Notes under the pieces: generated by a model
The model's input: the letters and a program-made list of their open reading frames with translations, nothing else
The model's database searches: none
Told to the model about the DNA's origin: nothing
From: Pseudorhodoferax soli
Lineage (GTDB): Bacteria > Pseudomonadota > Gammaproteobacteria > Burkholderiales > Burkholderiaceae_C
NCBI RefSeq assembly: GCF_003337555.1
Contig: NZ_QPJK01000004.1
Span: 595,320-659,319, forward strand
Direction of reading: 5' to 3'
Length of the DNA stretch: 64,000 nucleotides
Translations under genes and position numbers: made by a program
In this document: positions 15,922 through 45,055 of the stretch, one piece after another
How the letters are laid out: the number at the start of each line of letters is the position of its first letter
Numbering within the stretch: the first letter of the stretch is position 1

Positions 15922-16015
15922 GCGGCACAGCGGCGCCGGTGCCTGCACGCGGCCGGACGGACCGGCGACATCGGCCGACAGACGACCCCGCCGGGCTGCG
16001 CTACACCTGCAGCCC

Positions 16016-21539: not shown

Positions 21540-22508
21540 CTATTCGATCTTCGCGCCCGAAGCCTCGACGATGCCCTTCCACTTCTGGTAGTCGCTCTTG
21601 ACCAGCGCGCCGAACTGATCGGCCGTCATGCGCTGGATCTCGGCGCCCTGGGCCTGCACCGCAGCCACCATGTCGGGCATGGCGAGGACTTTGTCGACCT
21701 CGTTGTGCACGGTGGCAACGATCTCCTTGGGCGTGGCCGCCGGCAGGAACAGGCCATACCAGGTGCTGACGTCGAAGTCCTTGTAGCCGAGTTCGGCCAC
21801 GGTCGGGATCTCGGGCGCGGTGGAGCTGCGCTTGGCCGAGGTCACGGCCAGTGCACGCAGCTTGCCCGACTTGAGCTGGCCGATGGCCGAGGGCAGCGAA
21901 GACACCATCAGGTCCACGTTGCCGGCCAGCACGTCCATCATGGCCGGGTTGGAGCCCTTGTACGGCACATGGCGGATGTTGATACCGGCAGCGGTCTTGA
22001 AGATCTCGCCGGCCAGGTGGATGGTGGTGCCATTGCCGGGCGAGCCGTAGGTGATCGTGTCCGGCGCGTTGCGCGCCGCGGCCACCACGTCGCCCAGCGT
22101 GCGAAAGCGCGAGGTGCTGGACGTGACGATGACCACCGGCGTGTAGGCGATGTGCGAGACCGCGACCAGGTCGCGCGTGGGGTCCCACGGCAGGTTCTTG
22201 TACAGCCAGGGCCCGACGACCAGGTTGTCCTTCTGGCCCATGACCATCTCGTAGCCCGTGGGCGCGGCACGCACGGCCTCGCCGATGCCCACGGTGCCGC
22301 CGGCACCGGCGCGGTTGTCGGCCACCACCGTCCACTTGACGTGCTCGGTCAGCTTGGTGGCCACCAGGCGCGACAGGATGTCGGTGCCGCCGCCGGGCGG
22401 GAACGGCACGATCAAACGGATCGGCTTGCTCGGATAGGCCTGGGCGAGCGACAGGCCCGGGGCCAGCGCGCCGGCGGCCAGCGCGCTGCAGAAGGTGCGG
22501 CGGAACAT
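21540..22508 (-). CDS. Bug-family tripartite tricarboxylate transporter substrate-binding protein
   Basis: A 322-residue periplasmic binding protein. From the ATG at 22508 (SD AAGGAGAC) it has a signal peptide MFRRTFCSALAAGALAPGLS ending in LAQA, then the Bug opening YPSKPIRLIVPFPPGGGTDI. Later NRAGAGGTVGIGEAVRAAPT, AGEIFKTAAGINIRHVPYKG and MRMTADQ-like blocks also fit. The longer open frame (to 22685) is only GC-driven. No TctA/TctB membrane subunits are encoded nearby, as usual for the expanded Bug family in Comamonadaceae and Bordetella. It lies 38 bases after the aldehyde dehydrogenase gene, so the ligand may be a semialdehyde precursor or dicarboxylate. Confidence 0.92.
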   Translation of the reverse strand: MFRRTFCSALAAGALAPGLSLAQAYPSKPIRLIVPFPPGGGTDILSRLVATKLTEHVKWTVVADNRAGAGGTVGIGEAVRAAPTGYEMVMGQKDNLVVGPWLYKNLPWDPTRDLVAVSHIAYTPVVIVTSSTSRFRTLGDVVAAARNAPDTITYGSPGNGTTIHLAGEIFKTAAGINIRHVPYKGSNPAMMDVLAGNVDLMVSSLPSAIGQLKSGKLRALAVTSAKRSSTAPEIPTVAELGYKDFDVSTWYGLFLPAATPKEIVATVHNEVDKVLAMPDMVAAVQAQGAEIQRMTADQFGALVKSDYQKWKGIVEASGAKIE

Positions 22509-22546
22509 CGAAGTCTCCTTGTTGGTATGGCTCACCGGGCGCACGC

Positions 22547-23986
22547 TCAGACGTTGGTGATCGACACCGAACGCGTGTTCAGGTAGGCCTCCATGGCCTC
22601 CGGGCCGCCTTCGGAGCCGTAGCCCGAATCCTTGATGCCGCCGAACGGCAGTTCGGCCGAGGGCGTGGCGGGCTGGTTGATCCACAGCATGCCGACTTCC
22701 ACGCGCTGCGACAGGATGTGCGCGTTCTTCAGCGAGCTGGTGAACGCGTAGCCGGCCAGGCCGAAGGACAGGCGGTTGGCTTCGCTGATGGCGTCCTCGA
22801 TCTTGTCGAACGGGCGGATCGCGGCCATGGGGCCGAAGGGCTCGTCGTTGAAGACCTTGGCCGACAGCGGCACGTCGTTCAGGATGGTGGGCTGCCAGAA
22901 GTTGCCGGAATCGCCGATGCGTTCGCCACCGGCCAGCAGCGTCGCGCCCTGCTTCACCGCGTCCTGCGTGAACTCGGCCATGGCGGTCAGGCGGCGCGGG
23001 TTGGCCAGCGGGCCCATGGTGGTGCCTTCGGTCAGGCCGTCACCGACCTTGAGGCCGCGTGCGTAGGTGGCCAGCGTCTCGGCGAATTCCTTCTGCACGC
23101 TGCCGTGCACCAGGAAGCGCGTGGGCGAGATGCAGACCTGGCCGGCGTTGCGGAACTTGGCGGCACCGGCGGCCTTGACGGCCAGCGCGATGTCGGCGTC
23201 GTCGCAGACGATCACGGGGGCGTGGCCGCCCAGTTCCATGGTCACGCGCTTCATGTGCTGGCCCGCCAGGCCGGCCAGCATCTTGCCCACCGGCGTGGAG
23301 CCCGTGAACGTGACCTTGCGGATGATCGGGTGCGGGATCAGGTAGTTGGAGATCTCGGCCGGGTTGCCGTAGACCAGGCCGACCACGCCGGCAGGCAGGC
23401 CGGCATCGGCGAACGCCTGGATCAGCGCGGCGGGCGAGGCCGGCGTCTCTTCGGGGGCCTTGATCAGCATGGAACAACCGCTGGCCAGGGCAGCCGACAG
23501 CTTGCGCACCACCTGGTTGATCGGGAAGTTCCAAGGCGTGAAGGCGGCGACCGGGCCGATCGGGTCCTTCACGACCAGCTGGCGCACGGCCAGGCTGCCG
23601 CGCGAGGGCACGATGCGGCCGTACACGCGTTGGCCTTCGTCGGCGAACCACTCGATGATGTCCGCGGCGGCCATGGCTTCGCCCTTGGCCTCGGCCAGCG
23701 GCTTGCCGTTTTCCTGGGTCAGCACGGCGCCGATCTCGGCGGCGCGTTCGCGCATCAGCGCGGCGGCGCGGCGCATGGTGCGGGCGCGCTCGATGGCCGG
23801 GATGTCGCGCCAGACTTCGAAGCCCTTCTGCGCAGCGGCCAGGGCGCGGTCCAGGTCCTTGACGCCGGCATGCGCCACGCGGCCGATTTCCTTGCCCGTG
23901 GACGGGTTGAACACGGCCAGCGTGCGGCCGTCGGCGGCGTCCTGCCATTCACCGGCGATGAAGAGTTGGGTGCTGGGGTAGGTCAT
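22547..23986 (-). CDS. NAD(P)-dependent aldehyde dehydrogenase (succinate-semialdehyde dehydrogenase type)
   Basis: A 479-residue ALDH. The start [20 protein letters not shown] at 23986 follows a CAGGAGC Shine-Dalgarno; the upstream open frame is not conserved-looking. Catalytic residues are E251 in [11 protein letters not shown] and C285 in [12 protein letters not shown]; the cofactor loop is [10 protein letters not shown] (149-158) and [10 protein letters not shown] lies at about 225-234. The ISPTRF stretch and overall pattern resemble GabD/SauS-like succinate or sulfo-semialdehyde dehydrogenases. The enzyme oxidises an aldehyde to an acid in the cytoplasm. It leads a two-gene operon with the Bug protein at 21540. 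Confidence 0.9.
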
Positions 23987-24475: not shown

Positions 24476-24883
24476 ATGCCCCATCTCGTCGTGCTCTACA
24501 GCCCCAACGTGGAACCGGCCACCGACATGGGCGCGCTGTGCCGCCAGCTGTCAGACACCATGCTGGCGCAGCGCGACGACGCCGGCAAACAGGTCTTCCC
24601 GACCGGCGGCACGCGCGTGCTGGCCTTCGCGGCGGCGCACTACGCCGTGGCCGACCACCAGGGCGACTACGCCTTCATCTACCTGAACCTGCGCATGGCC
24701 AAGGGCCGGCCCGCGGCGCTGCAGCAGCGCATCGGCGAGGCGCTGATCGCCGCTGTGCGCGAGCAGCTGGCGCCGGTTTTCGGCAGCCGCCCCATCGGCG
24801 TGACGCTGCAGATCGACGAAGGCCATGAGGTCTTCGACGCCAAGCACAGCAACCTGCACCCGCTGTTCGGCCCGCCGGTCTGA
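24476..24883 (+). CDS. 5-carboxymethyl-2-hydroxymuconate delta-isomerase-like protein (tautomerase superfamily)
   Basis: A 135-residue protein opening MPHLVVLYSPNVEP with the catalytic N-terminal proline (Pro1 after Met removal) of the CHMI/HpaF family. Length and the later YAFIYLNLRMAKGRPAALQQ and IGVTLQIDEGHEV segments also fit. The family isomerises 5-carboxymethyl-2-hydroxymuconate in homoprotocatechuate degradation, but orphan copies such as this one, with no other hpa gene nearby, are common and may act on other enols. The start at 24476 is fixed by the need for Pro2. It is monocistronic. Confidence 0.82.
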   Translation: MPHLVVLYSPNVEPATDMGALCRQLSDTMLAQRDDAGKQVFPTGGTRVLAFAAAHYAVADHQGDYAFIYLNLRMAKGRPAALQQRIGEALIAAVREQLAPVFGSRPIGVTLQIDEGHEVFDAKHSNLHPLFGPPV

Positions 24884-25016
24884 ACCCCGGGCGCCAGACC
24901 ATGGCGCACCGCAACATACTAGAAAACACGGGTATCGGCGGCACTGGCGCGCACCCACAATGGCGCGCCCAGCGGCACCAATGCCGCGCACCACTTGTCC
25001 ACCCGAGGAGTACAAA

Positions 25017-26006
25017 ATGTCCATGAACCGCCGCCAACTGCTGCAGTCCGCCAGCGCCGGCGCCCTGCTGTCGGCCATCGGCCAGCAGGCCCTGGCCCAG
25101 GCCCACCCGGAGCTGCTGCGCATCATCACCGGCTTCGCGGCCGGCGGCACCTCGGACACCATCTGCCGGCGTGTCGCCACGCAGCTGGCGCCCAGCTACG
25201 CCAAGACCGCTGTGGTGGAGAACCGCACCGGCGCGGGCGGCCAGATCGCCATCCAGTTCGTCAAGTCGGCCGCGCCGGACGGCGCCACGCTGCTGCAGAC
25301 GCCCACGTCCATGCTGACGATCTACCCACACATCTACAAGAAGCTGGCATACGACCCCAAGGCCGACCTGGCGCCCGTCTCGCTGGGCTGCGTGTTCGAT
25401 TTCGGCCTGGCCGTGGGCCCGGCCGTGCCGGCCAGCGTCAAGAGCGTGCCCGAGTTCCTGGCCTGGGCCAAGGCGAACCCGGCCGGCGCCAACTTCGGTT
25501 CGCCTGCGGCCGGCTCCACGCCGCACTTCATCGGTGCGCTGCTGGGCAAGAGCGCGGGCGTGGACCTGAAGCACGCGGCCTACCGCGGCACCCAGCCCGC
25601 CATGCTGGACCTGCTGGGCGGCAACGTCTCGGCGGTGTCGGGCCCGGTCGGCGACCTCACGCAGCACCTGCCCAGCGGCAAGGTGCGCATCCTCGGCACC
25701 TCGGGCAGCAAGCGCAACCGCTTCGCGCCCGACGTGCCGACCTACGATGAGCAAGGCATCAAGGAGGGCACGCACAGCGAGTGGTTCGCCTTCTTCCTGC
25801 CCGCCAAGACCCCGGCCGACACCGTCAGCCACCTGAATGCCGCGATGAAGACCGCACTGGCCAACAAGGACGTGGTCGACGGCCTGGCCGGCTTCGGCCT
25901 GGAAGCCATGTCGTCCTCGCCGGCCGAACTGGCCGAGCTGGTGGCGCGCGACACGGCCAAGTGGGGACCGATCGTGAAGGCCGTGGGCTTCACGGCCGAA
26001 GGCTGA
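25017..26006 (+). CDS. Bug-family tripartite tricarboxylate transporter substrate-binding protein
   Basis: A 329-residue periplasmic binding protein. The ATG at 25017 (SD CGAGGAG) starts a signal with a twin-arginine-like MNRRQLLQSASAGALLSAIG ending ALAQA, then LRIITGFAAGGTSDTICRRV, NRTGAGGQIAIQFVKSAAPD and KHAAYRGTQPAMLDLLGG, the Bug layout. The first strand has GFAAGG instead of the commoner PFPPGG, which is one of the recognised variants. Its stop overlaps the start of the ketopantoate-reductase-like gene by one base (TGATG), so the two are co-translated. Confidence 0.9.
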   Translation: MSMNRRQLLQSASAGALLSAIGQQALAQAHPELLRIITGFAAGGTSDTICRRVATQLAPSYAKTAVVENRTGAGGQIAIQFVKSAAPDGATLLQTPTSMLTIYPHIYKKLAYDPKADLAPVSLGCVFDFGLAVGPAVPASVKSVPEFLAWAKANPAGANFGSPAAGSTPHFIGALLGKSAGVDLKHAAYRGTQPAMLDLLGGNVSAVSGPVGDLTQHLPSGKVRILGTSGSKRNRFAPDVPTYDEQGIKEGTHSEWFAFFLPAKTPADTVSHLNAAMKTALANKDVVDGLAGFGLEAMSSSPAELAELVARDTAKWGPIVKAVGFTAEG

Positions 26007-28042: not shown

Positions 28043-28723
28043 TCAGCGGCCGGCGCGCCACTGCGCCAGCAGCGCCGCCGAATCCATCACCAGCCCCAGG
28101 TGCAGCGAGACCATGCTCAGCGCCGCGGCCTCGAGGTGGTCGTCCGTGCCACGCACCAGGTCGCGCAGCACGACCACGCGGTAGTTGTGGTTGTTGGCGT
28201 CGAAGGCCGTGTTCAGCACGCAGCAGTCGGTGAAGCCGCCGTCCAGCACCACGGTGGTGATGCCCTGGTTGCGCAGCAGGAAGTCCAGGTCGGTCGGGTA
28301 GAAGGCCGACAGCCGGCGCTTGTTCTCCACGCGCAGATCCTGCGGAAGCACCTCGGTGACCCACTCGGTCCAGCGGCTGCCCTCGATGGCGTGCGCGTCG
28401 GCGTTCGGGATCGGGCCGACGTGCAGCGGGAAGGTGCGGCGCCAGGCCGCGGGAATGCCGGCCAGGTCGTCCGCGCCGCCCGGGCGCAGCACCGACTTCA
28501 CATGCACGATGGGCACGGCCAGCGCGCGCGCCGCACGGTGGAAGGCGTCGATGGGAGCCACCACGTCGCGGGCGCGCGGGGCCGGGCAGGGGCAGTCGGG
28601 GCTGTCCTCCAGGTGGCCGCGGTGCATGTCGATGGAGATGACCGCGGTGGTCGCCGGATCGAGGTAGTCGGCGAAGTCCGCGGGGGCGACCTCGCGGGTT
28701 TGTTCATAGACATGGATCTGCAT
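28043..28723 (-). CDS. Isochorismatase-family cysteine hydrolase
   Basis: A 226-residue amidohydrolase-like protein. The triad is visible: Asp in TAVISIDMHRGHLE (about residue 32), a lysine in VENKRRLSAFYPT, and the nucleophile in LDGGFTDCCVLNTAFDA. The family includes RutB (ureidoacrylate amidohydrolase), nicotinamidases and N-carbamoyl hydrolases. The ATG at 28723 overlaps the stop of the permease gene by one base (TGATG), so it is the last gene of a seven-gene operon. Given the RutR box and the sigma-54 type promoter in front of that operon, cleavage of a ureido or carbamoyl intermediate derived from a pyrimidine or related compound is a reasonable inference. Confidence 0.88.
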   Translation of the reverse strand: MQIHVYEQTREVAPADFADYLDPATTAVISIDMHRGHLEDSPDCPCPAPRARDVVAPIDAFHRAARALAVPIVHVKSVLRPGGADDLAGIPAAWRRTFPLHVGPIPNADAHAIEGSRWTEWVTEVLPQDLRVENKRRLSAFYPTDLDFLLRNQGITTVVLDGGFTDCCVLNTAFDANNHNYRVVVLRDLVRGTDDHLEAAALSMVSLHLGLVMDSAALLAQWRAGR

Positions 28724-29658
28724 CACCGTTCCTCACGGACATAGGGTTCGCCCAAGGCGCCGGGCTGGCTGCCCACGCCACCGCTGCCGCCACGCTGGCC
28801 GACGGCCACCCAGACCATCACGCCCAGCGTGACCACATAGGGCGTCATGAGCACGAAGTACTGCGGCAACTGCACGCCGGCCGCGGCCAGTTGGGGGATC
28901 AGCGCCTCGATGCAGCCGAACAGCACGGCACCGGCCAGCGCCTTCCACGGCGACCAGCGCGCGAAGATCACCAGGCCCACGGCGATCCAGCCGCGCCCGC
29001 CGGTCATGCCGGCGATCCACAGCTTGGTCGACAGCAGCGAGATGTAGGCGCCGGCCAGGCCGACCAGCGCGGCGCCGGCCAGGATCGCCAGGAAGCGCAT
29101 GCCGCTGACCGGGATGCCGGCCGCGTCCGCCGCCTGCGGGTTCTCGCCCACCGCGCGCAGCTTCAGGCCCATGGCCGAGCGGTTCAGGAACAGCACCACC
29201 GCGAGGAAGATGAACGGCGTGAGGAAGGCCACCGGGTTCTGCCGGAACAGCCCGCCCACGACCGGCAGTCCGGACAGCGGCCACAGCGCCACCGCACCCT
29301 GCGCCGTGACGGGCTGGTTGGTCCAGCCCAGCAGCGTGCCGAGCAGGCTCGACAGCCCCTGGCAGAAGAACACCAGCGCCAGCCCGGCGATGACCTGGTG
29401 GATGCGCAGCCACACCACCATCACCGCGAACAGCGCCGAGACCGCGCTGGCCGCGGCCATGGCCAGCACCAGCGACACGCCGGTGGCGCCGAAGGCGAGT
29501 TGCGCGCCGATGGCGACCAGCGCGCCGACCAGCATCAGCCCCTCGGCGCCCAGCGCGAGCACCCCGGCGCGTTCGGTCAGGATCAGGCCCAGCGCGGCGA
29601 GCGCGTAGGGCACGGCGAAATCGGGGACGCTGCCCAGCCAGTGGCCAATCAATTCCAT
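28723..29658 (-). CDS. ABC transporter permease, nucleoside/BMP type (YufQ/NupQ-like)
   Basis: A 311-residue membrane protein with about eight to nine helices, of the BPD_transp_2 family. The motif RAVGENPQAADAAGIPVSGM (about residues 170-189) is the conserved cytoplasmic loop, and LTERAGVLALGAEGLMLVGA near the N-terminus is typical of the second permease of purine/pyrimidine nucleoside importers. It starts 4 bases after the first permease gene and couples to the isochorismatase gene. It acts in the inner membrane as half of the channel. Confidence 0.92.
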   Translation of the reverse strand: MELIGHWLGSVPDFAVPYALAALGLILTERAGVLALGAEGLMLVGALVAIGAQLAFGATGVSLVLAMAAASAVSALFAVMVVWLRIHQVIAGLALVFFCQGLSSLLGTLLGWTNQPVTAQGAVALWPLSGLPVVGGLFRQNPVAFLTPFIFLAVVLFLNRSAMGLKLRAVGENPQAADAAGIPVSGMRFLAILAGAALVGLAGAYISLLSTKLWIAGMTGGRGWIAVGLVIFARWSPWKALAGAVLFGCIEALIPQLAAAGVQLPQYFVLMTPYVVTLGVMVWVAVGQRGGSGGVGSQPGALGEPYVREER

Positions 29659-29662
29659 GGGA

Positions 29663-30772
29663 TCACGACGGGAGAATCCGGCGCAGGCGGTGCCGGATGA
29701 AGAAATCGGAAGACGCCACGCTGATGACGACGATGGCCTGGATCAGCTGCACCATCGCGAACGGGATCTGGTAGAAAACCTGCAGGCTGCGGCCGGCCAC
29801 GAACAGCAAGGCGATCAGCACGGCCACCACCGTGGCCGCCACCGGGTGGTTGCGCGCGAGGAAGGCGATCAGGATGCCCGAGAAGCCGTAGCCATGGTGG
29901 AAGGCCTGCGTGAGCCGCCCCTCCTGCCCGGCCGCCACGAGGAAGCCCGCGATGCCGGCCAGCGCGCCCGACACCAGCACCGCCGCCAGCACCATGCGCG
30001 CCACCGGCACGCCGGCCGCGCCGGCCATGGTCGGGTTGGCGTGCACGAAGCGCAGGTACAGACCCGCGCGGCTGGCGTTGACGAACCACCAGGCCAGCAC
30101 CATCGCCAGCAGCGCCAGCGCGACGGCCGCGCCCGAGGGGCCGAAGAACTCCGGCAGCCGCTCGAAGGCCTGGAACTGCGGCGAATGCGGGAACGAACTT
30201 TGTGGATCCTTCCAGGCGCCGTACAGCAGGTGCAGCAGGAAGTTGCCGGCCACGTAGTTCAGCATCAGCGTGGCGATGATCTCGTTCACCCCGAGCCGCA
30301 GCTTGAGCAGCGCCGGCCCCCAGGCCCACAGCAGGCCGCAGCCGGCCGCCACGGCCATCATGAGCGGCAGGCGCAGCGCGGGCGGGCCGACCTCGAAGAT
30401 CGACACCGCCGTGGCGCCGATGGCACCCCACACCATCTGCCCCTCCAGCCCCAGGTTCCAGAAGCGCGCGCGGAATGCGATGGACGCGGCCAGCCCGACC
30501 ATGATCATCGGCGCGGCCTGGAACAGCACGGCCTGCAGGCTTTGCGCATCGAACACCGTGGCGACGATGAACTCCTGGAACAGCTCGCCGGCCGGCACGC
30601 CGGCCGCGACCAGGATGGCGCCCGAGATGGCCAGGCCCACCAGCACGGCCAGGGCGAGGACCAGCGCCTGCTGCTGCCACGGCATCTGCTGGCGGATCTC
30701 CAGCGTGTAGCGCCGGCTGGCGAGGGGCTCGAAGCGGCGCGGGGCCGGCGCGGCAAGAACGGATTCAGTCAT
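29663..30772 (-). CDS. ABC transporter permease, nucleoside/BMP type (YufP/NupP-like)
   Basis: A 369-residue membrane permease, the larger partner. Family blocks include VFDAQSLQAVLFQAAPMIMV, FNLGLEGQ-like FWNLGLEGQMVWGAIGATAV, LGVNEIIATLMLNYVAGNFL and NPTMAGAAGVPVARM. Its first 8 bases overlap the end of the ATPase gene, so translation is coupled. With the protein at 28723 it forms the translocation path. Confidence 0.92.
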   Translation of the reverse strand: MTESVLAAPAPRRFEPLASRRYTLEIRQQMPWQQQALVLALAVLVGLAISGAILVAAGVPAGELFQEFIVATVFDAQSLQAVLFQAAPMIMVGLAASIAFRARFWNLGLEGQMVWGAIGATAVSIFEVGPPALRLPLMMAVAAGCGLLWAWGPALLKLRLGVNEIIATLMLNYVAGNFLLHLLYGAWKDPQSSFPHSPQFQAFERLPEFFGPSGAAVALALLAMVLAWWFVNASRAGLYLRFVHANPTMAGAAGVPVARMVLAAVLVSGALAGIAGFLVAAGQEGRLTQAFHHGYGFSGILIAFLARNHPVAATVVAVLIALLFVAGRSLQVFYQIPFAMVQLIQAIVVISVASSDFFIRHRLRRILPS

Positions 30773-32282
30773 GGTGGGTCATGGCCTGGCCAACGGCTTG
30801 GCGGTCGGCGGGTGCGTCGAACTCGGCCACGATGCGCCCGCGCGCCATCACCCCGATGCGGTCGGCCAGCGCCAGCACTTCGTCCAGGTCTTCGCTGATC
30901 AGCAGCACGGCGGCGCCACCGTCGCGTGCCGCGCGCAGCCGCGCATGCACCTGGGCGCTGGCGCGCACGTCCAGCCCGCGGCTGGGGCTGTGCGCCAGCA
31001 CCAGCCGCGGCGCGCGGCTGAACTCGCGCGCGATGACGAGCTTCTGCGCGTTGCCGCCGGAGAGCAGCGCGGCCTTCTGCGCCACCGAACGAACCCCCAG
31101 CACATCGAAGGCGGCGACGGCCTCGCGTGCATCGAGAGCCATGCGGCGCTGGCGCAGCCAGGCGAAGGGCCCGTAGCGGCCGGACTGCACCTGGCCGATG
31201 CCGAAGTTCTCGGCCACCGACAGCGTGCCGGCCAGTGCATGGCTGTAACGGTCGGCCGGGATCGCGGCGATGCGCAGCGCGTGGCGTGCCGAGGGCGGCA
31301 CGCGCGTGAGGTCCGCGCCGTCCAGGCGCAGCTCGCCGTTCAGATCGCGGGCCAGCCCCATGACCGCGCCGGCCAGTTCGCCCTGGCCGTTGCCGCCGAC
31401 ACCGGCGATGCCATAGATCTCGCCCGCGTGCACGGTGAGGTCCACGCCGTCGAGCGCGCGTTGGCCTCCACTGGCGGTCGTGGCCAGGCCACGCACCGAG
31501 AGCAGGGGCGCACCGCGCGTGCGCGCACCGGTCGGCCCAGCGGCTGCGGGCACGCCCTCGCCCACCGTCAGCCGCACGAGTTCGGCCACCGGCGTGGCGG
31601 CCGGGTCCACGGTGGCGACCGTGCGGCCGCCGCGCATCACGGTCACACGGTCGGCATAGGCCTTCACGTCGGCCATCTTGTGCGTGACCAGCACCACGGC
31701 CGCGCCCTGGCGCGACAGCGTGCGCACGGTGGTCAGCAAGTTCGCGGCCTCCTGGTCGGTCAGCACGGCGGTGGGCTCGTCCAGGATCAGGATGCGCGCA
31801 CCGGCCAGCAGCACCTTCAAGATCTCCACACGCTGCTGCTCGGCGATCGACAGGCTGTCCACGCGCGCCAGTGGATCGATGGCGAAGCCCAGCGCCTCGG
31901 CCTGTGTGCGGATGCGCTGCGCCACCTCGGCCAGGCGCTGCCGGTAGCCCTGCGGCGGATCGGGTTCGGCCAGGCCCAGCAGGATGTTCTCGGCCACGGT
32001 GAACGGCCGCACCAGCTTGAAGTGCTGGTGCACCATGCCGATCCGGTGGCGTGCGGCATCGCGCGGCCCCTGCAGGCGCACGGGGTTGTCGTCCACCAGC
32101 AACTCGCCGGCCTCGGGCTTGTACAGCCCGGCCGCGATGTTCATCAACGAAGACTTTCCGGCGCCGTTCTCGCCGAGCAGGGCGTGCACCTCGCCCCAGC
32201 GCACGGTGACGTGCGCTTCGTTCAGTGCGAGGAAACCGTCGAAGCTCTTGCGGATGCCGGTCAGCGCGAGAGCATTGGTCAT
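30765..32282 (-). CDS. ABC transporter ATP-binding protein with two nucleotide-binding domains (YufO/NupO-like)
   Basis: A 505-residue tandem ABC ATPase. The ATG at 32282 gives MTNALALTGIRKSFDGFLAL. Domain 1 has Walker A GENGAGKSS (about residues 35-43) and LSIAEQQRVEI as signature, then ILILDEPTAVLT. Domain 2 has the degenerate Walker A GVGGNGQGE and a signature LSGGNAQKLV followed by LVLAHSPSRGLDV, typical of the RbsA/YufO class, in which only one site hydrolyses ATP efficiently. Its start overlaps the stop of the solute-binding gene by four bases (ATGA). It energises the importer. Confidence 0.93.
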   Translation of the reverse strand: MTNALALTGIRKSFDGFLALNEAHVTVRWGEVHALLGENGAGKSSLMNIAAGLYKPEAGELLVDDNPVRLQGPRDAARHRIGMVHQHFKLVRPFTVAENILLGLAEPDPPQGYRQRLAEVAQRIRTQAEALGFAIDPLARVDSLSIAEQQRVEILKVLLAGARILILDEPTAVLTDQEAANLLTTVRTLSRQGAAVVLVTHKMADVKAYADRVTVMRGGRTVATVDPAATPVAELVRLTVGEGVPAAAGPTGARTRGAPLLSVRGLATTASGGQRALDGVDLTVHAGEIYGIAGVGGNGQGELAGAVMGLARDLNGELRLDGADLTRVPPSARHALRIAAIPADRYSHALAGTLSVAENFGIGQVQSGRYGPFAWLRQRRMALDAREAVAAFDVLGVRSVAQKAALLSGGNAQKLVIAREFSRAPRLVLAHSPSRGLDVRASAQVHARLRAARDGGAAVLLISEDLDEVLALADRIGVMARGRIVAEFDAPADRQAVGQAMTHHD

Positions 32283-33370
32283 TTCTGCGTGGTCACGCCC
32301 TTGACGAACCAGTCCATCTTCCACAGGTCGGCATCGGACAGCACGGCACCCGCGGCCACGCGCTCCTTGCCCTCGCGGTCGGCCAGCGGGCCGGCGTAGA
32401 TCTGCTTGCCCTTCAGCAGAGCATCGCGCTCGGCCTGGATCAGCTTGGCCTTGTCGGCCGGCACGGCAGCGCCGAAGCCGGCGATGTCGGTGCCGCCGGC
32501 ACTCATCGGGATGAAGGCGCCGTAAGGGGCCGGCTTCCAGCCGCCGGCGATGACCTTCTTGAGTTCGGTCACGAGGAACTTGTCCCAGACCCAGACCGAC
32601 GAGCACAGCGTGGCCTTGGGTGCGAACTGGCGCAGGTCGCGGTGGTGGCCGGTGCCGTAGACGCCGCGCTCCTGCGCGACGATCTGCGGCGTCGGGCTGT
32701 CGACGTGCTGGCCGATCACGTCGGCGCCCTGGTCGATCAGCGCCGACGCGGCTGCGCGCTCCTTGACCGGGTCGTTCCAGGTGCCGGTGTAGATCACGTT
32801 GACGGTGGCGGCGGGGTTCATCTTCTGCGCGCCCAGCGCGAAGGCGTTGACGGTCCAGTTGACGACGCCGAAGGGGTTGGCCGCGACGAAGCCCAGCTTG
32901 CCGCTCTTGGACGCCGCGCCGGCCGCCATGCCGCACAGGTACTGGCTTTCGTAGGTGCGGCCGTAGAACGACTCGAGGTTGGCGCCGTTGGTGGTGCCCG
33001 ATGCGTTCAGGAAGGCCACCGTGGGGTGCTTGGCCGCGAGGTCCTTGAAGGCATCGGAGTGGCCGAAGGCGGTACCGATCACGATGTTGGCGCCGCGCGA
33101 GATGAAGCGCTCGGCCGCCGGCTTGATGACGGAGGCGTCCTCGGTGATGTTCTCGACGAACTGGATCTTCTGGCCCAGCTCCTTCTCGATCTTCACGCGG
33201 GCCTCGTCGAAGGCCTGCGTCCAGCCGCCGTCGTTCTTGGGGCCGTAGTACAGCATCGCGATGACGGGCTTGCCCTTGAGCGTGAAGCCCTCCTGGGCGA
33301 AAGCGACGGTGGGCACGACGGCGATGGCCGCAAGGCTCAGCGCGGTGGTGGAGAACAGGGTGCGCAGCAT
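32279..33370 (-). CDS. BMP family ABC transporter substrate-binding protein (PnrA/NupN-like)
   Basis: A 363-residue periplasmic protein with signal peptide MLRTLFSTTALSLAAIAVVP ending VAFA. The mature protein carries the Bmp/PnrA blocks MLYYGPKNDGGWTQAFDEAR, ITEDASVIKPAAERFISRGA, GANIVIGTAFGHSDAF and FVAANPFGVVNWTVNAFALG. Known members bind purine or pyrimidine nucleosides (PnrA, YufN/NupN), and some bind urate, oxindole-like or other N-heterocycles. It starts 14 bases after the VOC gene. The context (RutR box, rut operon next door) favours a pyrimidine base, nucleoside or breakdown product as ligand. Confidence 0.91.
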   Translation of the reverse strand: MLRTLFSTTALSLAAIAVVPTVAFAQEGFTLKGKPVIAMLYYGPKNDGGWTQAFDEARVKIEKELGQKIQFVENITEDASVIKPAAERFISRGANIVIGTAFGHSDAFKDLAAKHPTVAFLNASGTTNGANLESFYGRTYESQYLCGMAAGAASKSGKLGFVAANPFGVVNWTVNAFALGAQKMNPAATVNVIYTGTWNDPVKERAAASALIDQGADVIGQHVDSPTPQIVAQERGVYGTGHHRDLRQFAPKATLCSSVWVWDKFLVTELKKVIAGGWKPAPYGAFIPMSAGGTDIAGFGAAVPADKAKLIQAERDALLKGKQIYAGPLADREGKERVAAGAVLSDADLWKMDWFVKGVTTQK

Positions 33371-33384
33371 GGCAGACAGGCCTT

Positions 33385-33777
33385 TCAGGACATCATGAAG
33401 TTGATACGGAACACGTTGCCCTCGGGGTCGAGCAGCACGGCCTGGTACCAGTGGTAGTAGGTCACGTAGGGCGGCTTGACCAACGTGGCGCCGGCCTCCA
33501 CCGCGACGGGCACCATGCGGTCGACCTCGGGCTGGCTGTCCACGTCGATGTTGAGCAGGAACTTGATGCCGCGCGTGTCCGAGAACTCGGACAGCTGCAG
33601 CAGCGCGTAGGCGTCGAGCGCGTTGAAGCCGAGGTGGGACTTGCCGGTGTCCAGGCCCCGGAAGATCGGCGAGCGGATCGCCTCGATCTCGGGGAAGCCG
33701 AACACGCGCTGGTAGAAGCCGCTCAACGCCACCACGTCCCGGGCGAAGACGTTCACATACGACAGCTGGGCCGCCAT
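33385..33777 (-). CDS. VOC (glyoxalase/bleomycin-resistance/dioxygenase) superfamily protein
   Basis: A 130-residue single-domain VOC protein: MAAQLSYVNVFARDVVALSG, FYQRVFGFPEIEAIRSPIF, and the C-terminal YHWYQAVLLDPEGNVFRINF with the usual metal-ligand glutamate replaced by asparagine/arginine (GNVFRI). One or more metal ligands may therefore be lost, so it could be a binding protein or a non-classical isomerase. It begins 1 base after the oxygenase stop and is the second gene of the seven-gene operon. Confidence 0.85.
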   Translation of the reverse strand: MAAQLSYVNVFARDVVALSGFYQRVFGFPEIEAIRSPIFRGLDTGKSHLGFNALDAYALLQLSEFSDTRGIKFLLNIDVDSQPEVDRMVPVAVEAGATLVKPPYVTYYHWYQAVLLDPEGNVFRINFMMS

Positions 33778-33778
33778 G

Positions 33779-34786
33779 TCAGGCCGCCGCCTTGGTGCCG
33801 CCGAAGGTCGTCTGCTTGACGAACTTGGCCGTGAGGTGGTCGCCCGAGGTGACGGGCGCGTACTTGGCCACGGCGCCTTCGGCCAGGCAACTCGGCAGGC
33901 ATTCGATCACCGCGTCGTAGTTGGGCTGGTGGAAGAACACCAGCGACTGGCGCCGCGTGTTCTTCATGCTGTCGTCGAACGGCGGATTCACCACGCGGTG
34001 CAGCGTGGAGACCCACTCGTCGTTGGTCCACTGCATCATGAGGTCGGCGATGTTCACGACCAGGCTGTCCGCCACCTGCGGCACATCGACCCACTGACCG
34101 GCCTTGTTGAAGACCTGCAGGCCGGGGCCGTCGGGCAGCACCACCGTCAGGCTGCCGTAGTCGCTGTGCGCACCGGCGCGCATCTGGCCCGGCAGCGGGG
34201 CCTCAGTCTGCGCCGGGTAGCTCAGCACACGGAACATGCTGATGTGCTTGTCGATCTTGTCGTCGAAGAAGGTTTCGGGCAGTTGCAGGCCGACCGCGAA
34301 CATGCACATGAGTTCGCGCGCGAGCCCGCTCATCGCCGCGAAATACTCTTCGTAGGCGGCCTGGAAACCGGCCACGCCCACGGGCCACTGGTTCGGCTCG
34401 AAATGCGCGCCGGCCGCGGGGCCGCGGTGGTAGTCGTCGTCGGGCACGCCGCTGGGGCCGATCGAGAACGACTCCTTGAGGTCGCCCGGCGCGGCTTCTT
34501 CGAGGCTGTACGACAGCCCCTCTTCGCCGACCGCGCTGTAGCCGCGCACGGCGTCGTCGCGCGGGCGGTCGACCTTGCGCTTGTCGGCCAGCGGCAATGC
34601 GAAGAACGCACGCGATGCGTCGGACACGCGGCGGATCAACGCCGCATCGATCTGGTGGTGGGTGATGACCAGAAAGCCGATGCTGCGGCAGGCATCGTCG
34701 ACGGCACGGGCCACGGCGGCCTTGCCCTCCGGCGTGCCGGAGAACCAGGGTTGCAGGTCGATCACAGGGACATTCAGCGCGGGCAT
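33779..34786 (-). CDS. 2-oxoglutarate/Fe(II)-dependent oxygenase (isopenicillin N synthase-like family)
   Basis: A 335-residue enzyme with the DIOX_N domain (residues 4-110, NVPVIDLQPWFSG) and a double-stranded beta-helix core. Iron ligands are His207 and Asp209 (AHSDYGS) and His263 (STLHRVVNPP); the 2-oxoglutarate-binding pair is Arg279-x-Ser281 (RRQSLVFF). The family includes thymine-7-hydroxylase and many small-molecule hydroxylases. The start at 34786 (MPALNVPVIDLQPWFSG) follows GGAG. It is the first gene of a seven-gene operon with an importer and an amidohydrolase, divergent from rutR, and its promoter region contains a sigma-54 element and a RutR-like box. Oxidation of a pyrimidine-type nitrogen compound is my inference; a substrate cannot be read from sequence. 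Confidence 0.9.
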   Translation of the reverse strand: MPALNVPVIDLQPWFSGTPEGKAAVARAVDDACRSIGFLVITHHQIDAALIRRVSDASRAFFALPLADKRKVDRPRDDAVRGYSAVGEEGLSYSLEEAAPGDLKESFSIGPSGVPDDDYHRGPAAGAHFEPNQWPVGVAGFQAAYEEYFAAMSGLARELMCMFAVGLQLPETFFDDKIDKHISMFRVLSYPAQTEAPLPGQMRAGAHSDYGSLTVVLPDGPGLQVFNKAGQWVDVPQVADSLVVNIADLMMQWTNDEWVSTLHRVVNPPFDDSMKNTRRQSLVFFHQPNYDAVIECLPSCLAEGAVAKYAPVTSGDHLTAKFVKQTTFGGTKAAA

Positions 34787-34822
34787 GGGAGGCTCCGGAG
34801 CAACGGGCGATCCGGTGCCGCT

Positions 34823-34839
34823 TGCAACGTCCATGCCAA
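34823..34839 (-). promoter_or_regulatory. Sigma-54 promoter of the oxygenase-importer operon
   Basis: On the minus strand TTGGCATGGACGTTGCA matches the sigma-54 consensus TTGGCAC-G-N4-TTGCW at all but one defined position, with the required 10 bases between GG and GC. It predicts a start of transcription near 34812, about 25 bases before the oxygenase ATG at 34786. Confidence 0.75.
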
Positions 34840-34840
34840 T

Positions 34841-34856
34841 TGGACCAGTTGGACAA
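34841..34856. promoter_or_regulatory. RutR-like operator between the oxygenase gene and rutR
   Basis: TGGACCA-GT-TGGACAA agrees with the RutR consensus TTGACCA-NN-TGGTCAA in 12 of 14 positions. It abuts the -24 element of the oxygenase operon promoter (about -29 to -44) and lies 128 bases upstream of the rutR start, so binding could both block the operon and autoregulate rutR. Confidence 0.7.
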
Positions 34857-34900
34857 ATCGCGTTGCGGGGCATGCCACGCGCCGTTCAGCACGCCGGGCC

Positions 34901-34936
34901 GCGCCGCCCTGGTGCGCGGGCGCGCCGCGCTGGTGC
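34901..34936. promoter_or_regulatory. Two NtrC-like enhancer sites upstream of the oxygenase operon
   Basis: GCGCCGCCCTGGTGC (34901-34915) and GCGCCGCGCTGGTGC (34922-34936) are near-identical and fit the NtrC pattern GCACC-N5-GGTGC with one mismatch each. They are 21 bases apart (two helical turns) and about 90-125 bases upstream of the predicted start, a normal enhancer position. GC-rich sequence raises the chance of false matches. Confidence 0.5.
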
Positions 34937-34983
34937 GGCCTGCGCGCATGGTTCATGCATCATCGGCAGCCAGAGAGACCGCC

Positions 34984-35724
34984 ATGCCCGCATCCCCCGC
35001 ACGCAAGCCCAGCAACCCGCCGCGCAAAAAGACCACCGCAAGCGGCACGCCCGCCGCCAGGAAGCGCGCGGCGCACGGCACACCGGTGCCGGCCACCAAG
35101 CGGCGCGGCCGCAAGATCGAGGACAAGCGCAGCGTGATCCTGGGTGCTGCGCTGAGCCTGTTCTCGCGCTTCGGCCTGCACGGCACCACGGTCGACCAAG
35201 TGGCCGCGCGGGCCGAGGTCTCCAAGAGCAACCTGCTCTACCACTTCCCCAACAAGGAAGAGCTCTACGTCTCGGTGCTGCGCGATCTGCTGCACATCTG
35301 GCTGGAGCCGCTGCGCGGCTTCAGCGCCGAGCAGGACCCGCGCGAGGCCATCGCCGGCTACATCCGCAACAAGCTCACCATCTCGCGCGACCTGCCCGAC
35401 GCCTCGCGCCTGTTCTGCCTGGAGATGGTGCAGGGTGCGCCGCTGCTGCGCGACGAGCTCGGGCGCGAGCTGCGCGACCTGATCGAGCGCAAGTCCGAAG
35501 TGATCCGCGCCTGGGTGGCCGATGGCCGGCTGGCACCGGTGGAGCCGCACCACCTGGTGTTCGCGCTGTGGGCCATGACCCAGCACTACGCCGACTTCGC
35601 GGTGCAGGTGGAGACGCTGACCGGCCGCACGCTGGCCGATGCCGGCTTCTTCGAGGAGACCGTGCGCAACGTGCAGGCCATCGTGCTCGACGGGATCGCG
35701 CGCACGCCGGGCGCGGCGGCCTGA
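34984..35724 (+). CDS. rutR: TetR-family regulator of pyrimidine utilisation RutR
   Basis: A 246-residue regulator. After a basic leader of about 45 residues (possible alternative start inside), the DNA-binding domain is KRSVILGAALSLFSRFGLHG then TTVDQVAARAEVSKSNLLYH. The rest matches RutR closely: DASRLFCLEMVQGAPLL, MTQHYADFAVQVETLTG and ETVRNVQAIVLDGI. RutR senses uracil or thymine and releases its operator when bound. The gene lies between the oxygenase operon (divergent) and the rut operon (convergent, 6 bases between stops). RutR-like boxes precede both operons. The arginine/lysine/proline-rich N-terminal extension is longer than in E. coli. Confidence 0.92.
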   Translation: MPASPARKPSNPPRKKTTASGTPAARKRAAHGTPVPATKRRGRKIEDKRSVILGAALSLFSRFGLHGTTVDQVAARAEVSKSNLLYHFPNKEELYVSVLRDLLHIWLEPLRGFSAEQDPREAIAGYIRNKLTISRDLPDASRLFCLEMVQGAPLLRDELGRELRDLIERKSEVIRAWVADGRLAPVEPHHLVFALWAMTQHYADFAVQVETLTGRTLADAGFFEETVRNVQAIVLDGIARTPGAAA

Positions 35725-35730
35725 ACCGGT

Positions 35731-36231
35731 TCAGGCGGCCAACAGGTCGTGGTAGCGCCGGTCGAAGTAGACCAGGCCGTGCGCCGTGTCGCCGCTGCGG
35801 ATGGCCACGGCCTCGCAGAAGAGCACGTCGTGCGTGCCCACGGCGGTGCTGCGCACCACGCGGCAGTCGAACGACACGGCCGCGCCGTCGAGCACCGGCG
35901 CGCCGGTGACCAGCGCACCCCAGCGGCAGGCGGCGAAGCGCTCGTCCATCGGCGTCTTGCCGCCGAACAGCGCCGACAAAGCCTGCTGGCCCGCCGCCAG
36001 CACGTTGACGCACAGCACGCCATTGGCCTGGAACGCGGGGTACACCGAGGCGTTGCGGTTCAGGCAGACCAGCAGCGTGGGCGGGTCGTCGGTCACGCTG
36101 CAGACGGCCGATGCCGTGAAGCCGGCGCGCCCGCCGGGCCCGTCGGTCGTGATGATGTTGACCGCCGCACCCAGGCGCGCCATGGCGTCGCGGTAGTCGT
36201 TGCGGGGCACGGCGATCGGGGTCTGCTGCAT
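35731..36231 (-). CDS. rutF: FMN reductase RutF (flavin reductase of the RutA monooxygenase)
   Basis: A 166-residue flavin reductase: [20 protein letters not shown], then [20 protein letters not shown] and [20 protein letters not shown], with FDRRYHDL at the end. It supplies reduced FMN to RutA. It is the last gene of the rut operon (rutA-B-C-D-E-F, minus strand), 10 bases after rutE. No rutG permease gene follows; the operon ends against rutR. Confidence 0.92.
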
Positions 36232-36241
36232 GGTGGGCTCC

Positions 36242-36832
36242 TCACGCGAAGCGGCAGGCTTCTTCGAATGCCAGCCTGGGCGAGCGGCCGAACAGGCGGC
36301 TGGCGTCGCCGTGCCCCAGGTTGATCAGGAAATTGGTGGTCCAGGTGCTGCCGGCGAAGAAGGCCGCGTCGACCTTGGGCTTGTCGAAGCCGGACATGGG
36401 GCCGGCATCCAGCCCGAGCGCGCGCGCGGCCAGGATCAGGTAGCCGGCCTGCAGCGAGGCGTTGCGGAACGCGGTCTCGTGCGCCATGGCCGGGCTGCCG
36501 GTGAACCAGCTCTTCGCATCGGCGTGCGGAAACAGGCGCGGCAGCTGCTCGTAGAAGGCCATGTCCCAGGCGGCGATGACGGTGACCGGCGCGGCCATGG
36601 TCTTGTCCAGGTTGCCCTTGGACAGTGCCGGCGCGAGCAGGGCCTTGCCCTCGGGCGTGCGCACGAAGACGAAGCGCGCGGGCGAGCAGTTGGCCGAGGT
36701 CGGGCCCATGCGCACGAGCGCGTAGAGCTGCTGCAGCGTGGCGTCTGAAACGGGCGCGTCGGTCCAGCCGTTGTGCGTGCGGGCATCGAGGAACAGCGCG
36801 GCCAGTGCGGCCGCATCCAGGGTTGGGTTCAT
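36242..36832 (-). CDS. rutE: Malonic semialdehyde reductase RutE
   Basis: A 196-residue nitroreductase-fold protein: [40 protein letters not shown], and [20 protein letters not shown]. RutE reduces toxic malonic semialdehyde to 3-hydroxypropionate, the end step of the Rut pathway, using flavin and NAD(P)H. It overlaps the stop of rutD by four bases (ATGA), so the genes are translationally coupled. Confidence 0.92.
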
Positions 36833-37632
36833 GGTGTCTTGTGCCGTGCCAGGAAGGCCAGCAGCGCGGTGTTGAAGGCCTCTGCCTGGGTCACGCTGTG
36901 CGCGTGGCCGCCGTGCGGCAGGCGGTGCAATTCGGCGCGCGGCAGGCCTTCGGCCAGGCGCTGCGAGCAGGTCCACGGCACGAGCACGTCGTCCTGCGCG
37001 GCGCTGATCCAGACCGGCGCAGAGATGCGCGCCAGCAGCGCGTCGACATCGAAGGCGCGCAACGCGGCGATGCGCGCACGCATGGTGTCGGCGCCGGGGA
37101 AATGGTCGACCGCGTGGTCGACCTCGGCCTGCACGCGCGCGGGATGCGCAGCGCACCAGTCGGCCGGGTACAGGAAGATCGGCTGGGCTTCGCAGTAGGC
37201 GCGCGCGCCGCCGGCCGCCAGCAGCGCCAGCCGCGCGTCGAAGCAGCGCGCCGAGTGCGGGTTGGGCCGGGACCAGGCGTTGACCAGCGCCAGGCTGGCC
37301 ACACGGCCGGGCGCATCCAGCGCGAGCTGCAGGCCCACCAGGCCGCCCAGCGCGTGCCCGACCAGGTGGCAGCGGTCGGTCTGCGTGGCGTCGAGCAGCT
37401 CGCGCACATCCTCGGCCATGTGGGCGATGCTGTAGGGCGTGGGCAGCGTGCCGCCGGTGCGCCCGGTGCCGCGCTGGTCGTAGGCGATCACACGCCAGCC
37501 GGCCGCGACCAGCCCCTCGACCTGCGGCTTCCAGAACGCGGCGGCGCCGCCCAGGCCGGAGCTGAGCAGCACGGTCGGCCGATCGGCCTGGCCATGCGCC
37601 GGGCCATGGACATCGTGCGCGACGACGGCCAT
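36829..37632 (-). CDS. rutD: RutD, alpha/beta-hydrolase-fold protein of pyrimidine degradation
   Basis: A 267-residue alpha/beta hydrolase: [58 protein letters not shown] and [10 protein letters not shown]. The nucleophile-elbow residue is alanine (A94 in GHALGG) in place of serine; as I recall, E. coli RutD has the same GHALG, so this is a family feature, not damage. RutD is thought to speed hydrolysis of aminoacrylate or carbamate. The ATG at 37632 is 5 bases after rutC; the end overlaps rutE. Confidence 0.92.
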
Positions 37633-37637
37633 CGCGC

Positions 37638-38030
37638 TCAGCCCTTCTTGCCGACGTGGGCCACGGTGGCGATCTCGACCAGTGCGTCGGGCTTGACGAG
37701 GCCGCACAGGATGCAAAAGCGCGCCGGCTTGCTGCCCGGGAAGAACTCGGCATAGACGGTGTTGACGGCGCCGTAGTGGGCCCAGTCGGTGATGAAGATG
37801 TGGTTCATCGTCACGTCGGCCATGGTGCCGCCGGCAGCCTCGACCACGCCCTGGATGGTGGTCAGCACATGGCGCGTCTGCGCGGCGGCATCGCCGACGT
37901 GGACCACGTTGTTGTCCTTGTCGAAGGGCAGCGTGCCGGAGACGTAGAGCACGCCATCGGCCAGCGTGCCGGGAACGTAGGGGGCCAGCGGCACACCGGT
38001 GCCGGGAGGAATGACTGCGGTCTGGGGCAT
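37638..38030 (-). CDS. rutC: RutC, YjgF/RidA-family 3-aminoacrylate deaminase
   Basis: A 130-residue RidA-fold protein: [40 protein letters not shown] and [20 protein letters not shown], with the RidA arginine-containing motif near the C-terminus ([20 protein letters not shown]). It converts 3-aminoacrylate to malonic semialdehyde plus ammonium. It lies 30 bases after rutB and 5 before rutD. Confidence 0.92.
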
Positions 38031-38060: not shown

Positions 38061-39919
<1,859 letters not shown>

Positions 39920-39993: not shown

Positions 39994-40009
39994 AGCAGGC
40001 GCTGTGCCA
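39994..40009 (-). promoter_or_regulatory. Sigma-54 promoter of the rut operon
   Basis: On the minus strand TGGCACAGCGCCTGCT fits TGGCAC-N5-TTGCW with one mismatch and has exactly 10 bases between GG and GC. The predicted start is near 39983, about 64 bases before the rutA ATG. In E. coli the rut operon is NtrC-controlled, so such a promoter is expected. Confidence 0.7.
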
Positions 40010-40061
40010 GTCATGAAAGTCTTTTCAAATCAATGGCGTACTTGCATTTCCCAAAAACAAT

Positions 40062-40077
40062 CTGACCAAATGGTCCA
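40062..40077. promoter_or_regulatory. RutR operator upstream of rutA
   Basis: CTGACCA-AA-TGGTCCA matches the RutR consensus TTGACCA-NN-TGGTCAA in 12 of 14 positions and sits in a wider near-palindrome (TCTGACCAAATGGTCCAGA, 40061-40079). It lies about 80-95 bases upstream of the predicted sigma-54 start, between the promoter and the enhancer-like sites. Confidence 0.8.
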
Positions 40078-40092
40078 GATTGGCGCAGGCCA

Positions 40093-44034: not shown

Positions 44035-45027
44035 TTACTCGGGCTCGATGCCCGCCGCCTTGATCACCTTGCCCCACTTGGCCGTCTCGGCCGCCTGGAA
44101 CCTGGCGAGTTCGTCTGGGCTGGTGCTCCAGGCCACCGAGCCGCTGCCTTCGAAGAAGCTCTTGGCCGCGGCGCTCTTGGTGGCGGCGGCCAGCAGTTCC
44201 TGCAGCTTGGCGACCACCGCGGGCGGCGTGCCGGCCGGCGCGTAGGCGGCGAACCAGTAGCCCATGTCGTAGCCCTTGACGCCGGCCTCGGCGATCGTGG
44301 GCACCTCGGGCAGCAGCGGGTTGCGCTCGACGGTGGAGATGCCCAGCGCCTTGAGCTTGCCGCCCTTGACCTGCGGCACGCCGGTGGAGGTGTCGGTGAT
44401 CATGAAGTCGATCTGCCCGCCCATGAGGTCGGTGATCGCGTTCGGGTTGCTCTTGTAGGGCACGTGCAGGATGTCGGTGCCCGAGAGCTGCTTGAACATC
44501 TCGCCGGCCATGCGGCTGGAGGAGCTGCCGCTGCCGAAGCTGAGCTTGCCGGGCGTCTTCTTGGCCGCGGCCACGAGGTCCATGACGTTCTTGTACGGCG
44601 CGTCGGGCCGCACCACCATCACCTGGCCGCCCTTGCCCAGGCCCGTGATGGGCGCGAAGTCCTTCACCGGGTCGTAGCTGAGCTTCTTGTAGAGGTGCTC
44701 GTTGGCCGCGTGCGTGGTGTTGGTGGTGATCAGAACGGTGTAGCCGTCGGCCGGCGCACGCGCCACCTGGCTGGCGGCGATCTGGCCGCTGGCGCCGCCC
44801 TTGTTGTCCACGACCACGGGCTGCTTGGTCTGGTCGGTGACGGACTGGCCCAGTGCGCGGGCGATCTGGTCGGTCGCGCTGCCCGCCGCGAACGGCACGA
44901 CGAAGGTGATCGGCTTGGCCGGGAAGGCCTGGGCAGCGGCCAGCTGCGGCAGCAGGCTGCCGGCGCTCAGCGCCAGAGCGGCGGCGAGCCAGGTGCGGCG
45001 GGGGCGGGGGCGGGATTGTTCTTGCAT
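44035..45027 (-). CDS. Bug-family tripartite tricarboxylate transporter substrate-binding protein
   Basis: A 330-residue periplasmic binding protein. The ATG at 45027 (preceded by GGAGA) is preferred to 45042. Signal MQEQSRPRPRRTWLAAALAL ends AAAQ, then FPAKPITFVVPFAAGSATDQ, NKGGASGQIAASQVARAPAD, AGEMFKQLSGTDILHVPYKS and IGEVPTIAEAG-like blocks (LPEVPTIAEAGVKGYDMGYW). It lies 28 bases after the AtuA-associated small gene and is the last gene of that operon; its ligand may be the substrate of the AtuA system. Confidence 0.92.
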   Translation of the reverse strand: MQEQSRPRPRRTWLAAALALSAGSLLPQLAAAQAFPAKPITFVVPFAAGSATDQIARALGQSVTDQTKQPVVVDNKGGASGQIAASQVARAPADGYTVLITTNTTHAANEHLYKKLSYDPVKDFAPITGLGKGGQVMVVRPDAPYKNVMDLVAAAKKTPGKLSFGSGSSSSRMAGEMFKQLSGTDILHVPYKSNPNAITDLMGGQIDFMITDTSTGVPQVKGGKLKALGISTVERNPLLPEVPTIAEAGVKGYDMGYWFAAYAPAGTPPAVVAKLQELLAAATKSAAAKSFFEGSGSVAWSTSPDELARFQAAETAKWGKVIKAAGIEPE

Positions 45028-45055
45028 CGGTGTTGTCTCCAAGGGGATGGGTGGG

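Follow-up and report, generated by a model that had tools for sequence, protein, structure and literature searches.

Which compound is handled by the seven-gene operon that stands beside the rut genes of Pseudorhodoferax soli, when pyrimidine catabolism is regarded as largely solved by the Rut, reductive and oxidative routes? The operon lies on the minus strand, from 34786 to 28043, of the window analysed here, which is the whole stretch of 64,000 nucleotides from contig NZ_QPJK01000004.1 (positions 595,320–659,319). It encodes a 2-oxoglutarate (2OG)-Fe(II) oxygenase (hereafter OXY), a VOC-family protein, a BMP-type importer and an isochorismatase-like hydrolase (IHL). Very probably this is a module under RutR and sigma-54 control which serves the catabolism of pyrimidines or of close N-heterocycles, and on balance we favour an accessory pyrimidine-catabolism module whose role would be to draw nitrogen from some modified ring compound of the pyrimidine type. 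The original prediction, made from the letters of the window, had already proposed an arm of pyrimidine or related N-heterocycle use with a hydroxylation step, thymine-7-hydroxylase being named as a member of this oxygenase family. The tie to pyrimidine use stands because of the co-occurrence with RutA, the rut neighbours, the shared operators and a locus in Parvibaculum; 7-hydroxylation of thymine is not favoured.

The seven genes are separated by successive gaps or overlaps of +1, +14, -4, -8, +4 and -4 bases, which agrees with the tight packing that had been described (all between -8 and +14), and Pfam upheld the family first given to each of them. Gene rutR (34984–35724, plus strand) is divergent from the operon. 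Its product scores 298 bits with TIGR03613, below the cut-off of 368, and 283 bits with PRK15008, above the cut-off of 230; in alignment it retains W77, Y97, W167, Q171 and Q179, the uracil-contact residues given in PMC10891134. Beyond it, all on the minus strand and all above the cut-offs of their models, are rutF (35731–36231; TIGR03615, 270 bits), rutE (36242–36832; malonic semialdehyde reductase model PRK05365), rutD (36829–37632; TIGR03611), rutC (37638–38030; TIGR03610), rutB (38061–38750, start approximate; TIGR03614) and rutA (38798–39919, ATG checked; TIGR03612, 703 bits). Family models thus bear out the predicted divergence from rutR and the neighbouring rutA-F.

Among 399 genomes of the same family, OXY orthologs (60% identity or more) were found in 18 of the 20 genomes with RutA and in none of the other 379. 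The RutA genomes without OXY are G325 and G675; weaker relatives, not accompanied by RutA, occur in G407 (57%) and G425 (48%). A neighbourhood survey in Comamonadaceae, which had been suggested as a check, was carried out and found the OXY unit divergent from rutR. Sixteen fetched loci carry OXY of at least 77% identity (L063–L078), and rutR is present in the stretch of 15, a stretch being the fetched DNA around a locus, beyond whose edges genes do not count. In the sixteenth (G446), rut genes and rutR are on a different contig from the module, the promoter of which retains both the palindrome (12/14) and the sigma-54 element (10/12) described below. In genome G171 the ATPase-permease-IHL part and OXY-VOC-BMP are on separate contigs. 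At the level of the class, RutA was found in three of 369 genomes and OXY, counted at E 1e-90 or better, in the own genome only.

The promoter of the operon contains a sigma-54 -24/-12 element, TGGCATGGACGTTGCA (34823–34838, minus strand; 11/12 compared with TGGCACGNNNNTTGCW, P 0.0015), and, one base further upstream, a RutR-like palindrome, TTGGACCAGTTGGACAAA (34840–34857). The latter matches 12 of the 14 positions of TTGACCANNTGGTCAA, the RutR consensus (P 0.001; all motif P values are from dinucleotide shuffles). Both elements had been noticed at the outset, and both are retained in orthologues. Upstream of rutA are likewise a RutR-like palindrome, CTGGACCATTTGGTCAGA on the minus strand (40061–40078), and a sigma-54-like element, TGGCACAGCGCCTGCT (39994–40009, minus strand; 10/12 compared with TGGCAYGNNNNTTGCW). 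Palindrome scores of 9–11/12 were obtained for an initial set of 17 rutA promoters, 14 of them with P at most 0.015 and three with P 0.11–0.12. Palindrome and sigma-54 element stand side by side in 61 of 76 scored OXY promoters (joint score at least 22/24). Start to start, and scored on the symmetric core, the spacing is 17–19 in 62 of 77 OXY promoters and 66–69 in 59 of 61 rutA promoters. A weak box (7–8/10) is found at 68, the rutA spacing, in the OXY promoters of L193, L195, L200 and L206, and with symmetric-core scoring those of L190, L191, L194 and L196 have no convincing box. In L183, L187 and L188, which have no rut genes near, the sigma-54 element is retained and a good RutR box is absent. 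The palindrome CTGACCANNTGGTCAG, present in Tistrella, Pararobbsia and Parvibaculum, differs from the E. coli consensus at the outer base only; in Parvibaculum it sits downstream of a sigma-54-like element. A perfect TTGGACCANNTGGWCAAA occurs once in the 8.16-Mb host genome, at the OXY operon promoter, and with up to two mismatches there are ten matches in eight places (five for the reversed pattern), one of these places being upstream of rutA; the six that belong to neither promoter looked intragenic by eye. Because these promoters supplied the pattern, its rarity is informative and the match is not. In E. coli, rutA is listed as an RpoN target and rutA-G is repressed by RutR (PMC8743547 and PMC10891134).

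Two NtrC-like sites had also been claimed for this promoter, and these are not convincing. The best site scores 9/12 (P 0.18) and the pair has P 0.011; under a looser consensus the values are 0.74 and 0.40, respectively. Of 11 further promoters, one had a best site with P < 0.05 and two had a pair below that value. The DNA at 34900–34937, upstream of the RutR box, contains CGCACCAGNGCGGCGCG twice in nearly identical copies, 21 bases apart.

For a wider view, an alignment of the VOC protein was used, and the best 80 of 179 loci, all from named genomes, were fetched; some of these stretches end early at contig ends. OXY (50% or more) was present in 78 loci, BMP (60% or more) in 78, and both in 77, with 69 containing OXY, BMP, ATPase and both permeases. 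Seventy have rutR (50%) or rut genes (rutB/C, 60%) in the stretch. Among the ten without a rut match, L146 and L158 end close to the VOC gene. The closest named loci to that of the window are two from Pseudorhodoferax. The gene order varies with lineage: the OXY unit is downstream of rutF in Pseudomonas (L189, L205), with a second rutR between the two in L192 and L202; it follows rutR on the same strand in Halopseudomonas and precedes rutR-rutA in Alkalilimnicola.

The Parvibaculum locus (L199) has a different set of pyrimidine genes. Its order is a RutR-like regulator, a PreT-like protein, PreA (dihydropyrimidine dehydrogenase, 722 bits against a cut-off of 335), a hydrolase, another ABC system and then OXY-VOC-BMP-ABC-IHL, with TGACC/GGTCA palindromes preceding both units. 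The hydrolase, of the carbamoylase family, scores above the cut-off with a subfamily model for allantoate amidohydrolases, and after the module, at 15961–16644, is a biuret hydrolase (422 bits against a cut-off of 370). No rutA-F match was found within the fetched stretch, the rest of this genome not having been searched. In Parvibaculum the module thus keeps company with genes of the reductive pathway (PreTA/Pyd), whereas no such genes were seen in the annotated part of the window. In G097 (L083, 2404–6874) an alpha/beta hydrolase, an amidohydrolase, a Rid protein and a Rieske dioxygenase pair are inserted between BMP and ATPase, and would be like a substitute for RutD, RutB, RutC and RutA. 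A Komagataeibacter match to the VOC protein (34%) stands among Rieske genes.

Several observations weigh against the favoured reading. The Fisher p values of the OXY/RutA pairing, 2.7e-29 by genome and 1.8e-14 by genus, overstate its significance and independence because the genomes are related. Rut works without the module, since OXY is absent from two of the three RutA genomes at class level, and conversely G097 has the module but no RutA. Besides L146 and L158, eight of the 80 loci are without a rutR or rutB/C match; L203 has OXY-VOC without BMP, and L204 VOC without OXY. An abutting box is missing from eight Halopseudomonas-type OXY promoters, three of which have no more than a weak one at 68, L198 (no rut genes near) has neither palindrome nor sigma-54 element, and the pattern TTGGACCANNTGGWCAAA was written after these promoters had been seen. 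Finally, the nearest solved relatives of the BMP protein are purine binders, and relatives of OXY-VOC stand in a purine cluster of G062.

With these points weighed, we still favour the scavenging of nitrogen from a modified pyrimidine-type compound, and we infer RutR binding, the substrate class, and the reactions and their order as follows. RutR bound to the palindrome one base from the -24/-12 element would hold back the polymerase as long as no uracil-type base is present, and a sigma-54 activator, probably nitrogen-responsive, would then start transcription. The BMP-type importer would take up a planar ring compound that is sandwiched by two tryptophans; OXY would hydroxylate or remove a substituent and the VOC protein deal with the oxidised intermediate. 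What results, either uracil or a ring similar to it, may then be passed to RutA-F (in Parvibaculum, to the PreA route), and IHL, where present, may strip an amide or carbamoyl group. Because removal of a substituent would yield a base for either Rut or Pre/Pyd, the module would follow the pyrimidine pathway as a whole rather than any single ring-opening enzyme. An oxidative trimming of a substituted pyrimidine is a step to which we give slightly less than even confidence. More tentatively still, this could be an undescribed and widespread branch in which OXY, with a VOC partner and an importer dedicated to it, strips an N- or C-substituent from modified pyrimidines, such as N-alkyl bases or bases decorated in other ways, the bare ring passing to Rut, Pre/Pyd or (G097) the Rieske set, under RutR operators at two fixed distances from sigma-54 elements.

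The main rival is that the module serves a purine-derived compound, such as a methylated or oxidised purine or its ureide, with RutR only co-ordinating nucleobase use; we consider this unlikely. It draws on the BMP-family substrate-binding protein (32279–33370; Pfam Bmp), whose nearest solved structures, by sequence and by fold, are AtzT (6pi5), which holds guanine, and 3s99, which holds adenine (PMC6834077). The same paper gives AtzT a Kd of 0.11 uM for guanine and 1600 uM for uracil. With the BMP model (pLDDT 82, good), Foldseek places AtzT first, 3s99 second and nucleoside binders after them; as with OXY, the fold search agrees with the sequence search and points to no new ligand. The pocket was compared in an alignment of 71 rows (70 ungapped), with AtzT numbering at an offset of five inferred from residues that match. 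W45, A97, F98, W194, H218 and D220 are identical in 70 of the 71 rows, the other row being gapped, so that, of the nine pocket positions mapped, six do not vary in any ungapped row. The protein shares with AtzT/PnrA-like importers the fold, W194, F98 and a tryptophan for Y45, and with the adenine binder 3s99 it shares H218 and D220. It differs from AtzT in lacking E165 and S97 and in a pocket that is nearly constant among 70 orthologues: the guanine-binder residues E165, S97, N218 and N220 are V, A, H and D in the window, and in place of E165, which reads guanine in AtzT, every ungapped row has V, Q or P, a finding against the purine rival.

Gene neighbourhoods point both ways. G062 (L085, 1–13405) has the order xanthine permease-OXY1-OXY2-VOC-xdhA-xdhB-xdhC-AtzE amidase-allantoate amidohydrolase (partial), with a gamma-glutamyltransferase-like protein in the same cluster, where a non-classical purine step is possible. 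A Rhodococcus plasmid (L210, 4179–8393; Actinomycetota) has NCS2 permease-OXY-OXY-VOC in the same order, and from these two arrangements OXY and VOC often appear to pair beside nucleobase transport. With Tistrella, where a BMP importer adjoins, there are three more distant OXY-VOC loci beside a nucleobase permease or BMP importer, which we count in favour of the pyrimidine module; ten Tistrella reading frames were examined, and just two could be assigned, to an AMP nucleosidase and a MocR-type regulator. In G444 (L072, 3336–5365) the space between VOC and BMP is taken up by a flavin monooxygenase-like gene and one of the ureidoglycolate-lyase family, the latter of which would fit a ureide or carbinolamine step, and in G594 the gap at this place is equally long. 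The E. coli RutR is also described as connecting pyrimidine and purine metabolism (PMC10891134). Against a purine substrate stand the almost exclusive association with RutA among the family genomes sampled and the PreA of Parvibaculum.

A second alternative is that OXY (33779–34786; Pfam DIOX_N and 2OG-FeII_Oxy) is a bacterial thymine-7-hydroxylase (T7H), converting thymine to 5-hydroxymethyl-, 5-formyl- and 5-carboxyuracil. Its nearest solved structure is indeed the fungal thymine dioxygenase of Neurospora (5c3p; E 6e-46, 160 bits compared with 138 for the next enzyme), with 32% identity over 334 aligned columns, and T7H chains take ranks 1–11 in Foldseek. The OXY model is modest (pLDDT 66), however, and its TM-scores of 0.73–0.76 with T7H compare with 0.77 for 3oox, so that T7H is not singled out. 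T7H was compared with six close orthologues and with paralogues aligned on the right strand, rows d_L014, d_L016, d_L020, d_L033 and d_L038 being left out. Fifteen residues of T7H are named in PMC4787775, and OXY retains 11 of them, including the metal-binding H/D/H, the 2OG-binding R286, S288 and Y194, and R190, Y217 and F292; L223 is V (V or I across orthologues). Most of the retained residues, including the metal and 2OG ligands, are common to the aligned paralogues and hence no argument for thymine, whereas the base contacts N87, E122 and N294 are V, S and Q in all six close orthologues. T7H scores these orthologues at 164–173 bits, yet reaches 143–162 bits with relatives from other contexts (44–57% identity). 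Pfam revealed no decarboxylase family among the seven operon genes, so a partner for this route is lacking there. The assignment of OXY as T7H by homology was therefore rejected on the base contacts, and a thymine arm is improbable.

Additional oxygenases were seen. In L068, L071 and L076–L078 the module carries an extra 2OG oxygenase with 31–33% identity to OXY, followed in L071 by a solute-binding protein and an ABC ATPase. The own genome has an OXY paralogue (47%) at G000:C2:879265-880224 (L082), which is also found in four other genomes of the genus. The VOC-family protein (33385–33777; Pfam Glyoxalase) adjoins OXY and has 2rbb as its nearest solved structure (E 3e-61).

We think it similarly doubtful that the unit is mainly a RutR-controlled importer of uracil or thymine, with oxygenase, VOC protein and hydrolase secondary. 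The importer is completed by a tandem ABC ATPase (30765–32282, start checked; two ABC_tran stretches in Pfam; 397 bits on NF047930, cut-off 670) and two permeases (29663–30772 and 28723–29658; both BPD_transp_2). The operon had been thought to fill a missing permease role, there being no rutG in the window; that absence is correct, but the argument from it was rejected as a RutG-like permease lies on another contig. RutG is the nearest NCBIfam model of this permease, which scores 601 bits against a cut-off of 758 that none of 14 control genomes, E. coli included, passes. The 400 bases preceding its gene contain neither a convincing palindrome nor a convincing sigma-54 element; of the two transporters, then, it is the BMP importer that has RutR-type control, a point in favour of the importer reading. 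On the other side, OXY and VOC head the unit and are retained with the importer where IHL is absent, and the RutA genomes G325 and G675 lack OXY and IHL yet have a RutG-like permease. That an unrelated catabolic operon sits at this locus by chance is hardly credible: the function of every enzyme is predicted, but operator spacing is conserved, the association is retained when the parts are physically separated (L067), and gene orders differ across lineages.

The last gene, IHL (28043–28726, GTG start; Pfam Isochorismatase), shares its family and a TDCCV motif with RutB, biuret hydrolase and triuret hydrolase. It differs from RutB and biuret hydrolase (BiuH) in being only 27% identical to the RutB of the window and 29% to a true BiuH, and it falls far below both curated cut-offs (BiuH 67 bits, cut-off 370; RutB 46 bits, cut-off 378). 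The nearest solved structure is biuret hydrolase 6xjm (E 2e-17), and ureide cleavage by IHL is plausible. Among 22 genomes examined, orthologues are found in the same 18 that have OXY and in G097, and are absent from G325, G675 and G407. IHL was found in the stretch of 58 of the 80 loci of the wider survey; it is missing from that of 21 of the 78 OXY loci (some of them cut), G097 and G171 carry it outside the stretch, and the gene after permease 2 is another one in L183, L190, L195, L197, L198 and L206. IHL is not a constant part of the module. Homologues with 58–59% identity occur on plasmids of Rhizobium, Pantoea and Klebsiella (six records), and the three examined have no OXY, VOC or rut annotation.

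Compared with the E. coli-type Rut pathway, the locus has rutA-F and rutR, adjacent, and a palindrome with a sigma-54 element upstream of rutA; it differs in the extra oxygenase-VOC-importer-hydrolase unit and in a RutG-like permease that is unlinked and without such an operator. A module that tracks RutA in one family and reductive genes elsewhere suggests a pyrimidine-type nutrient still to be assigned. Ligands to test follow from it, both for a BMP importer and for an oxygenase closely related to thymine hydroxylase, and it provides a clear example of a single repressor site placed at two set distances from sigma-54 promoters. No published description of this gene set was found among the top-ranked literature matches, and the RegPrecise RutR tables may list the importer; the RegPrecise analysis gives about 11 RutR targets per genome (PMC5343134).

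Gene calls by codon usage were rough and served only in picking proteins for family searches. The rut locus is flanked by three TctC-type binding proteins, at 21540–22685, 24825–26006 and 44035–45042 of the window.

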